Below, piece after piece: positions 28,889 through 34,876 of a stretch of DNA of 37,913 nucleotides (position 1 is the first letter of the stretch; every line of letters begins with the position of its first letter). The notes below the pieces were generated by a model. That model made no database searches. It saw nothing but the letters and a program-made list of their open reading frames with translations, and had not been told where the DNA came from. The translations under genes and the position numbers were made by a program. The DNA comes from a virus. The DNA lies in IMG/VR virus record IMGVR_UViG_3300002460_000089, positions 1 through 37,913 of that record; one strand, given 5' to 3'.

Positions 28889-29563
28889 TTACGCGCTGGC
28901 TGTGTAGGTTACGTTCAGGGTGTCACCGTTCACAACGGAACGGTTGCCGCCGCTGAAACTGCCGCAGCTGTACAGGATGCCAGTAGTGCCGCCTTTGGTG
29001 GAAACGGAAATCAGGAAGGCGCCTGCTATGGTGCCGCCGGCGTTGATGTTGAACGCAGTCGCAGTGCTGGCCTTGCTGCCGGCAGCTGCCGCGCCCCAGG
29101 AAGGAGTGGGTCGGTTGGCGTTGGAGTAGCCGGTATTCTCGGTCCAGCCGGCGTGCGAAGCGGAGGTATCGCCTGCAGCGTAGGTGGGAGCAGAACCGCC
29201 ATCGACCAGGCCCAGGTACCAGGCAGCGGTGTAGGCCGAACCCGCCAGGAACTTGTCCAGCAAGTCGTTCTTGCCAACGGTGGTTACCAGGTTGAAGGCT
29301 TCGTCCACCCATTTTTCTTCCATGGGGATCAGCAACAGTTCGGCGCCCAGACGGGCCGCTTCCTGATAGTCACCATTCTCGACGGCCAGGTCGCGGGCGT
29401 CACGCAGCTGAACGTACTCAGCGCGGCGCTCCTCGACCGGACCCATCAGTTGGAATCCGTACTTCCCGTGGACGTCTACGTCCTCGCTGAGGAAGTCATT
29501 TCTGGAAACAGCTGCGGCAGCAGCAGCGCCGGCAGCAATCGTTTCGTATCGGTTCTTGTGCAT
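28889..29563 (-). CDS. Virion structural protein with HAGWTE motif, 224 aa
   Basis: Residues 1-95 are helical (GPVEERRAEYVQLRDARDLA, then LGAELLLIPMEEKW). Residues 96-224 are a Gly/Ala/Ser/Thr-rich beta part with AYTAAWYLGLVDGG and SHAGWTENTGYSNANRPTPS. This two-part layout recurs in phage structural proteins I remember from similar tail-fibre blocks, although no function has been fixed. It has GGAG before its ATG and an 82-bp gap before it, one of the largest in the operon. Confidence 0.65.
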   Translation of the reverse strand: MHKNRYETIAAGAAAAAAVSRNDFLSEDVDVHGKYGFQLMGPVEERRAEYVQLRDARDLAVENGDYQEAARLGAELLLIPMEEKWVDEAFNLVTTVGKNDLLDKFLAGSAYTAAWYLGLVDGGSAPTYAAGDTSASHAGWTENTGYSNANRPTPSWGAAAAGSKASTATAFNINAGGTIAGAFLISVSTKGGTTGILYSCGSFSGGNRSVVNGDTLNVTYTASA

Positions 29564-32784: not shown

Positions 32785-33429
32785 TTAGCGTAGTTTGCCC
32801 AGCTCTGCTTCCAAAGCTGCCATGAAAGCATCGGCCATCCGGGGGAACTGATCCCGCAGAATCTTTACCGTGGCGCGCTCCACCGCCTGCTGCCGCGCCA
32901 GGGTATAGACCTCCTGCTCGAAGTTGGTGATGGTCTTGAACGCCGAGGCGCAGGCGTTGAATACCTTCTGGGCCTCGGCCACGTCCTTGCCAACCTTGAT
33001 CCGGCCGTTGATGTACACGTCGTTGTACATGGCCCGCACGGCCGTCAGCATTCGTTTGACCTGGCCTTCCATCGTGGTGTTCTGCGCATCCTCGCCTTCG
33101 TACAGCTCCTCCTTGACCCACGCGCTTTGGGGGATGGCACACACCAGCTCGAACAACTGCTCCTCGTCCAGCTGAGGCAGGGTGTCGTGGATGAACTCAT
33201 GCAGCGCCAGCCCTATTGCAGGGTCCCCGGTGCTGGTGGCGGGTGCCGCCTGCTTGGGGGCCTCCTTGGGCGGCCGGCCCCGCTTGCGCGGGGGTTCGTC
33301 TTCCTCCGGCTCATCCTCCGGCGCCGGGCCTTCCCCCAACAGATACCGCTTGTCGGGGGTGCTGGCCTTGCTCAGTGCATCCCAGGAATCCATCTCGGCC
33401 TTCTTGGTTGACAGGTCATTTCGGGCCAT
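32785..33429 (-). CDS. AT-hook protein, candidate terminase small subunit, 214 aa
   Basis: Residues 36-47 are acidic and residues 48-55 read RKRGRPPK, a classic AT-hook that binds the minor groove of AT-rich DNA. Residues 70-214 are helical (QVKRMLTAVRAMYNDVYING, VERATVKILRDQFPRMADAF). DNA binding, the helical oligomer-like body and its place at the head of the late block suggest the small terminase, which recognises the packaging site. The alternative is a nucleoid or transcription factor. The start overlaps the upstream gene by 14 bp. Confidence 0.5.
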   Translation of the reverse strand: MARNDLSTKKAEMDSWDALSKASTPDKRYLLGEGPAPEDEPEEDEPPRKRGRPPKEAPKQAAPATSTGDPAIGLALHEFIHDTLPQLDEEQLFELVCAIPQSAWVKEELYEGEDAQNTTMEGQVKRMLTAVRAMYNDVYINGRIKVGKDVAEAQKVFNACASAFKTITNFEQEVYTLARQQAVERATVKILRDQFPRMADAFMAALEAELGKLR

Positions 33430-33781
33430 CAGCCAGGGCCTCCCTCAGCTTGCGGGTGATGTTCTTCTCCACCCGGCTCTTCTCATACCAGGCCCAGGCC
33501 AGAAACCAGATCGGGGCAAACACCAGCACCAGCAGGAACATCAGCAGGGAAAGCAGCTCGTGACCCCAGGCCAGTAGCGCGCCGATCAGTAGCCGCAGAA
33601 CCTTGGCCGGGATCACGAACAGTCCGAAGAAGACCCCCAGCTTACCCTTGTTGGTGCCGGACATCGCCTGCCGCCAGCTGCCAATGGCAAAGCACAGCAG
33701 GAACGTCTGCCGCGCGATGATTGGCAGGCCCTTCCAATAAACCTGCCACACGGTCAGCCGGCGGGTGTCGATTTCGTCCAT
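33416..33781 (-). CDS. Two-segment membrane protein, 121 aa
   Basis: Two strongly hydrophobic regions are present: about residues 48-70 (GVFFGLFVIPAKVLRLLIGALL) broken by a charged turn, and 75-97 (LLSLLMFLLVLVFAPIWFLA). The C-terminus is basic. The chosen ATG at 33781 has GAGGATTT upstream. Its promoter region faces the plus-strand gene at 33842. No family is recognised. Confidence 0.65.
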   Translation of the reverse strand: MDEIDTRRLTVWQVYWKGLPIIARQTFLLCFAIGSWRQAMSGTNKGKLGVFFGLFVIPAKVLRLLIGALLAWGHELLSLLMFLLVLVFAPIWFLAWAWYEKSRVEKNITRKLREALADGPK

Positions 33782-33795
33782 TTCAAAATCCTCAT

Positions 33796-33827
33796 GTACA
33801 CTGAACAACTCAGTAAATTGAGTGTAC
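33796..33827. promoter_or_regulatory. Inverted repeat in the divergent gap
   Basis: The 60-bp gap between the two divergent genes holds GTACACT (33796-33802) and its exact inverse AGTGTAC (33821-33827). A second, inner pair is ACTCA (33808-33812) with TGAGT (33819-33823). The arms are the size of operator half-sites and lie at the ribosome binding site edge of both genes. No -10/-35 pair is convincing. Confidence 0.5.
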
Positions 33828-33841
33828 CTGAGGAAAAGCGT

Positions 33842-34255
33842 ATGTCCAATGCACAGCAAGCCCTGCTCGAAGTCATCCGCCTGGCCGGCGGTCCTGTGGA
33901 GCCACGATTCCTGTTTCTGGGAGCGGGCCTGTTCCCGGGGGAATCCAACCGCCGCGTCAACTGGTGCGGAATCGGTGCCAGCAAGTATGCTTTCTCGGCC
34001 ATCGTCGAGGCAGCCTGTGAAGTAATGGAGTCCTCCGCTGCGAAGGGAACCAACATCATGAAGCTGGTGCAGAATGCAGAACGAAATGGGTACTTCGCCT
34101 TCGATGGTGCAGTACATACGATGAAACCAGTAAACCAGGAAGAGGCGCAGAAAGGGGAGCAGGGAAGGGTGAGAGAGTCTGGTATGAAGCCGGTCAGCAT
34201 CATCGTGCGCCGGCTCCCGTTCCTAGAAGACTACGAGGTTTTTCGGGTGGTGTAG
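33842..34255 (+). CDS. Only plus-strand gene; unknown, possible regulator, 137 aa
   Basis: ATG at 33842 has TGAGGAAAAGCG upstream. The protein (MSNAQQALLEVIRLAGGPVE...) has an N-terminal helix, a Gly/Phe-rich loop (FLFLGAGLFPGES), a long helix (ASKYAFSAIVEAACEVMESS) and a basic C-terminus. No known DNA-binding motif is clear. The minus-strand frame over the same DNA gives a Ser/Pro/Cys-rich product and is not credible. Its opposite orientation, the operator-like repeat in front and the 33-bp tail-to-tail overlap with the SLOG gene suggest a switch or autoregulator. Confidence 0.65.
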   Translation: MSNAQQALLEVIRLAGGPVEPRFLFLGAGLFPGESNRRVNWCGIGASKYAFSAIVEAACEVMESSAAKGTNIMKLVQNAERNGYFAFDGAVHTMKPVNQEEAQKGEQGRVRESGMKPVSIIVRRLPFLEDYEVFRVV

Positions 34256-34876
34256 GCGTTTAATTTCTTTGGCGTACTCCTCCGCCAAAAACCCATCCAG
34301 CGGATTCATGATATTCAACATCACCGGCAGGGTTGTCAGCAGCTCTGCCTCCTTCCACTTCTGCAACGCAAACAATCCAAAGTTGGTACCGCCTTTAACG
34401 TATTTCTTGACTGTGGTGTGGCCCATCCGCTCATAAAAAATCACCAAGGAAACCGCATCGACGCTGATAAAATTGTTGGCCTCCGACAATTTTATTTTCG
34501 TCGTTGGAAGCTCCTCCACCTGCCTAAAGTCCGCAAGAATATCCAGATTTCGCGCCATCAAAAATCGGTAGCTGGAGTGCATCGTCCACCAGTGAGGATG
34601 AATCATCGACGCCAGCCACATCGCCACCCGACTCGGGTGATCCTGAACATAACAGTTCAGTTTTTCTTTTATGCCGCGAAATTTAGGGTTTGGCAAAAAT
34701 ACCTTCTTTGTCCTCCGGTCCGTGTGCCCTTCCAGAAAATTCTCATCTGCACCTTCTCCACCACCCGTCCTGAGTTTGAACCCCAGAGACGAAAGAAATC
34801 CGGCGATTTGCCGGATTTCTTTTAACGCCTCTTCAGGGGTGTCCCTGTTGCCGATTCCTGCATAGGACAGCTTCAT
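34223..34876 (-). CDS. SLOG / DprA-like Rossmann-fold protein, 217 aa
   Basis: The N-terminus MKLSYAGIGNRDTP is followed by a helix and the second motif RTGGGEGADENFLEG (about residues 35-50), which together form the nucleotide-binding loops of SLOG proteins. Later segments match phage relatives: FLPN, then a helical HP...RFLMARN region, and VKGGTNFGLFALQK, the GGT helix. The expected valine-rich strand between them is replaced by an acidic insert (ELPTTKIKLSEANNFISV). Start 34876 has GAGGTC upstream. Such proteins bind nucleotides or NAD-derived ligands, or load RecA-like proteins; which applies here is unknown. Confidence 0.75.
   Translation of the reverse strand: MKLSYAGIGNRDTPEEALKEIRQIAGFLSSLGFKLRTGGGEGADENFLEGHTDRRTKKVFLPNPKFRGIKEKLNCYVQDHPSRVAMWLASMIHPHWWTMHSSYRFLMARNLDILADFRQVEELPTTKIKLSEANNFISVDAVSLVIFYERMGHTTVKKYVKGGTNFGLFALQKWKEAELLTTLPVMLNIMNPLDGFLAEEYAKEIKRLHHPKNLVVF
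34792..34822. terminator. 13-bp perfect hairpin inside the SLOG gene, terminator-like on both strands
   Basis: The arms 34792-34804 and 34810-34822 are perfectly complementary, with a 5-base loop. On the plus strand the right arm ends in TTTCTTTT, giving a usable U-tract for transcripts leaving the plus-strand gene. On the minus strand the U-tract (TTTCTTT) is also present. It encodes KEIRQIAGFLS in the SLOG protein, so it sits inside coding DNA. Confidence 0.55.

Follow-up and report, generated by a model that had tools for sequence, protein, structure and literature searches.

The term moron is usually applied to temperate phages. In PMC6469090, it designates phage accessory genes. In phage T4, the leader of gene e contains a hairpin that sequesters the Shine-Dalgarno sequence (SD) and that is avoided by late transcripts, and in soc, 49 and I-TevI the SD or the start codon likewise lies inside an inhibitory helix (PMC3014915). 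According to PMC4207663, pLS20 carries a divergent regulatory switch with overlapping divergent promoters. The locus described here, a lone plus-strand gene that diverges from a membrane-protein gene across a 60-nt gap, shares features with each of these systems.

The DNA that we analyzed (referred to as 'the window') spans an entire IMG/VR virus record (37,913 bases), which has no end repeats and represents a phage fragment. It encodes a large terminase of the gpA type, an S49-peptidase protein and a protein of the phage tail tape-measure type. Relatives of its portal and terminase are present in viral contigs, several of them 73–79 kb long, while a host and prophage scan with a portal alignment found no portal relatives in bacterial genomes. 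The window is therefore probably about half of a lytic-type phage, and the lack of portal relatives in the bacterial genomes searched sets it apart from the temperate phages for which the term moron is usually used. A codon-use gene map of the whole window placed all chosen genes on the minus strand except one, at 33842–34255 (+). A preliminary description of this DNA had called that gene the only one to run rightward in more than 37 kb. The gene map and the codon score agree with this for the window itself, but its scope is roughly half a genome, given the missing end repeats and the greater length of several relatives.

The plus-strand gene encodes 137 amino acids. It starts with an ATG at 33842 (position 33796 of the preliminary description belongs to a repeat arm, see below) and is preceded by an SD, TGAGGA, 7 nt before the ATG. 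Its 3' end overlaps by 33 bp the end of a convergent DprA-like gene (34223–34876 (−); phrog_768, 2.4e-22). The per-codon coding score of the gene was 0.29 bits, compared with 0.36 ± 0.14 for 64 segments of known genes of the same length, which places it at the 30th percentile. In the controls, mirror-strand segments scored at most 0.10 and every other frame at most 0.23. By codon statistics, 33842–34255 is thus a real coding frame. Its codon usage matches that of the phage's own genes, with no sign of recent acquisition. It is hardly credible that this frame is spurious and that the leftward membrane protein instead extends N-terminally through the stretch. The minus-strand ORF at 33416–34117 does stay open through two thirds of the plus-strand gene; however, the codon score of the extension is negative, as are those of all three minus frames across that gene (−0.08, −0.09 and −0.65), whereas the plus frame has a gene-like score, and the membrane-protein gene has a good SD and an ATG of its own at 33781.

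The 137-aa protein is a clean orphan. Comparison with Pfam, PHROGs, NCBIfam, PADLOC and PDB sequences returned no family, no HTH and no DNA-binding domain. No homologues were found by tblastn in phages and plasmids, by 8-mer scans of viral and genome contigs, or by tblastn and phmmer in about 170 loci and the whole records of eight relatives. AlphaFold2 models built from one and from two sequences were of too low confidence to interpret (pLDDT 39 and 42). TerS-family proteins ranked faintly against the 137-aa protein, a lead that was dropped after a TerS profile gave a best domain of −0.1 bits. There is a faint collinear likeness to a 141-aa protein from one relative, L011, with 26% identity over a gapped alignment. 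This protein ranked second of 538 and gave p values of 0.002–0.006 in semi-global shuffle tests, while the local alignment was marginal (p = 0.034) and the HMMER E value of 7.8 was not significant. On these comparisons, homology between the two proteins is suggestive only.

Next, we compared the position of the gene among relatives. It occupies a slot immediately upstream of the genes for the membrane protein and the TerS-like protein, and in most relatives the same slot holds a non-homologous counter-strand gene or gene pair. G002/L003 carry an 89-aa gene and an EcoRI-type adenine methyltransferase (PF13651, 3e-130; L003:1492–2454 (−)), G003/L011/L094 carry a 107-aa HTH protein followed by the 141-aa protein mentioned above, and G006/L024 carry a 99-aa gene. 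The HTH protein of L011 (L011:6517–6837 (−)), the first of its pair, matches phrog_323, 'transcriptional regulator, D5-like' (2e-10), and is a candidate late-module regulator. Small counter-strand genes likewise adjoin the module on its upstream side in L064, L045 and L018, and genes of 74 and 227 aa are found among the slot contents of relatives. Both flanks of the slot are in the main orientation in the window, G002, G003 and G006; the slot genes of L045 are the first of a longer cluster in the opposite orientation, and the sequences of L064 and L018 do not reach the far flank. In L016, 3.3 kb of upstream sequence contained no counter-strand gene in the slot. The position of the slot is conserved and its contents are not. 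Separately, L071 encodes a 376-aa counter-strand protein directly upstream of its TerS-like gene (L071:484–1614 (−)) that by eye resembles proteins of the TnpB/IS200-IS605 type.

The preliminary description had offered two readings of this layout, a self-controlling switch or a moron inserted against the operon. The varied counter-strand genes in the same slot of most relatives support the accessory sense of the second, which we favor over the switch. Like morons, the 137-aa gene is single and out of step with its surroundings, the content of its slot varies among relatives, and it probably has its own expression signals. Unlike morons, it shows no atypical codon use, its promoters are candidates only, and no terminator-like site was found. 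A check for insertion scars found no direct repeats flanking the gene. Since one relative has an EcoRI-type methyltransferase in this slot, our guess is that the 137-aa protein has a host-takeover or defence-related accessory function. More generally, the border of the packaging module in these little-described phages with gpA-type TerL appears to be a recurrent cargo slot and hence a place to seek new accessory genes; the cargo seen consists of methyltransferases, HTH proteins and orphans.

On the left of the gap, the first gene (33416–33781 (−)) encodes a 121-aa membrane protein with two predicted transmembrane segments. Positional counterparts precede the TerS-like gene in L003, L011, L064, L024 and L045. 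The end of the membrane-protein gene is overlapped by a gene for a 214-aa protein (32785–33429 (−)). A profile made from this protein and its relatives matches the gene immediately upstream of TerL in many relatives, and the protein is probably the small terminase subunit, a name based on position and conservation. The DprA-like gene on the other side has a relative in L011 that lies about 7 kb upstream of the packaging module; the module has thus changed its place with respect to this gene. Further left in the window, a 224-aa protein (28889–29563 (−); phrog_8123) has relatives in many viral contigs and belongs to a widely shared module. Scanning with this protein reached many contigs (the best 80 of 169 related stretches) and gave no new carrier of the slot; among these best 80, some match only from about residue 84, with 66–79% identity.

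We then turned to the gap itself. A 7-bp inverted repeat with an 18-base spacer had been reported there, placed in the region before both the plus-strand gene and the leftward membrane-protein gene. The repeat is present exactly as reported (GTACACT at 33796–33802 and AGTGTAC at 33821–33827). Taken alone the 7-bp pair is weak, as the window has 140 such pairs and one also turns up in about 6% of shuffled versions of the 60-nt gap. However, a repeat search showed that it forms the core of a larger two-fold symmetric element (33789–33834) with a 12-nt spacer and 17-nt arms (33789–33805 and 33818–33834), in which 15 of 17 positions are paired (88% complementary). This element is the sole repeat of such quality in the window, and one of 20 whole-window shuffles has any. 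When it was folded as RNA in the two directions, the z scores were −5.3 and −5.0, and none of 200 shuffles was equally stable. An Rfam search gave no match.

The center of symmetry, 33811.5, is the exact midpoint of the start codons at 33781 (−) and 33842 (+), and both genes therefore carry a near-identical leader, TTSAGTGTACMTGAGGA-N7-ATG. In the sense direction, this leader reads TTCAGTGTACATGAGGA-TTTTGAA-ATG for the membrane-protein gene and TTGAGTGTACCTGAGGA-AAAGCGT-ATG for the plus-strand gene. On each strand of the gap a candidate −10 hexamer (TACACT), the center, the SD (TGAGGA) and the ATG follow one another at equal distances. The SD of the plus-strand gene is in the right arm (33829–33834 (+)) and that of the membrane-protein gene in the left arm (33789–33794 (−)), such that each arm combines the SD of one gene with, on the opposite strand, the candidate −10 of the other. 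The SDs account for 6 of the 17 arm positions, and the two arm mismatches spare both the SD and TACACT. A two-fold symmetric leader shared by the two genes, each with its candidate promoter and SD, describes the repeat better than a simple operator does. The leader motif was absent elsewhere in the window, which counts against a phage-wide promoter.

The promoters within this leader are candidates. For the membrane-protein gene, the consensus match comprises TACACT at 33821–33826 (−) and a −35 TGGACA at 33843–33848; for the plus-strand gene, TACACT at 33797–33802 (+) is a weak match (4/6) with a poor −35 and was identified by consensus alone. Promoter matches in the gap are no better than the number expected by chance. 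The gap could instead hold a single bidirectional sigma-70 promoter serving both genes, whose shared −10 would lie in the AT-rich center (CAGTAAATTGAG). Such promoters have been described in bacteria by Warman, Grainger and colleagues. As in these promoters, the window has pseudo-symmetric DNA between divergent genes, and the center of the gap is its AT-rich part. In bacteria, bidirectional promoters are pseudo-symmetric and lie mostly between divergent genes on chromosomes (PMC10268837, PMC12825309). Their start sites are 7–25 bp apart on opposite strands around a shared −10, with a typical spacing of 18 bp. However, that spacing needs a shared −10, and the central hexamer of the gap is weak on the plus strand (TAAATT) and absent on the minus strand. 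The TACACT pair would give overlapping start sites instead. In addition, the symmetry in the window reaches the SDs and start codons, unlike that of bidirectional promoters, and the best −10 candidates are unshared. We consider this arrangement very unlikely.

Another possibility is a self-controlling switch, in which the 137-aa protein would bind the palindrome as a repressor or activator of both its own gene and the packaging-module genes. The divergent layout with a palindrome between the genes would suit such a protein, an HTH protein occupies the same slot in L011, and the 137-aa protein faintly resembles the second gene product of that HTH pair. This likeness, however, is to the non-HTH partner and does not reach significance with HMMER (E = 7.8) and is marginal by local alignment (p = 0.034), no HTH or DNA-binding family was recognized in the 137-aa protein itself, although a novel domain is conceivable, and the AlphaFold2 models, with pLDDT of 39 and 42, are too poor to help. 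A pair of SDs and a pair of −10-like boxes also account for the positions of the repeat. The window resembles the pLS20 switch in its candidate overlapping divergent promoters and differs from it in that a recognized DNA-binding protein is absent from the gene pair. Of the switch proposed in the preliminary description, then, the palindrome between divergent genes is there and the DNA-binding protein was not recognized, and we regard it as unlikely. A real if minor possibility is that the symmetry is a scar, left when a promoter and RBS cassette underwent inverted duplication as the gene was acquired, with no function as hairpin or operator. The two leaders, in sense orientation, are almost the same (TTSAGTGTACMTGAGGA-N7-ATG) and equally spaced, and a motif restricted to this one site within the window is what a local duplication predicts. 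On the other hand, the match ends at the SD without extending into the coding sequences, and the arm mismatches leave SD and TACACT intact, which is compatible with selection but is not proof of it.

In the explanation that we favor, to which we give about an even chance, the 137-aa gene belongs to the accessory cargo that recurrently occupies the border of the packaging module, and it is expressed divergently from the symmetric leader. The gene would stand outside the late operon, lodged at the head of a module that starts with the membrane-protein and TerS-like genes, and both it and the membrane-protein gene would be expressed divergently from the two-fold symmetric 60-nt gap. Initiation inside the repeat would yield RNAs that lack the 5' arm and have freer SDs. 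Leftward read-through from the upstream co-oriented genes, which is plausible because the stretch from the DprA-like to the membrane-protein gene showed no terminator-like site, would give RNA that contains the complete hairpin and in which the membrane-protein gene has its SD buried; the overlapping TerS-like gene would perhaps be silenced as well. RNA polymerase cannot serve both overlapping promoters simultaneously, so the two directions may compete. The predicted accessibility of the SD in read-through RNA was 0.14 for the plus-strand gene and 0.15 for the membrane-protein gene, the second and third lowest of 45 genes, compared with 0.40–0.76 for RNAs starting 40–30 nt before the ATG; this burial is an automatic consequence of the repeat and thus gives no evidence of its own. 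There is no known rightward transcript upstream of the plus-strand gene, and burial of its SD may have no role.

More specifically, one palindrome might act as a two-way post-transcriptional gate, with read-through RNA hiding and internally started RNA exposing the ribosome-binding site in either direction. We propose this tentatively and consider it rather doubtful. Like T4 gene e, the window has an SD that falls in a long predicted helix when the RNA starts upstream, and the 5' arm of its repeat holds a candidate promoter, such that locally started RNA would lack the arm. Unlike gene e, the repeat would act on two divergent genes, its promoters and the read-through are candidates only, and its targets would be an orphan gene on one side and the membrane-protein and TerS genes on the other rather than a lysozyme gene. 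If such a gate operates, the accessory gene and the membrane-protein and TerS-like genes would be on together, or competing, only when the local promoters fire. If the leader acts as proposed, it would extend the timing control of the T4 lysozyme type to a divergent gene pair.

Against the favored explanation, relatives do not share the symmetric leader, whose pattern was absent from all other loci. An inverted repeat unrelated in sequence to that of the window, and with no T-run directly after it, is found at L003:2759–2824 (G002), where its 30-nt arms, 97% complementary, fill the divergent gap upstream of the module.
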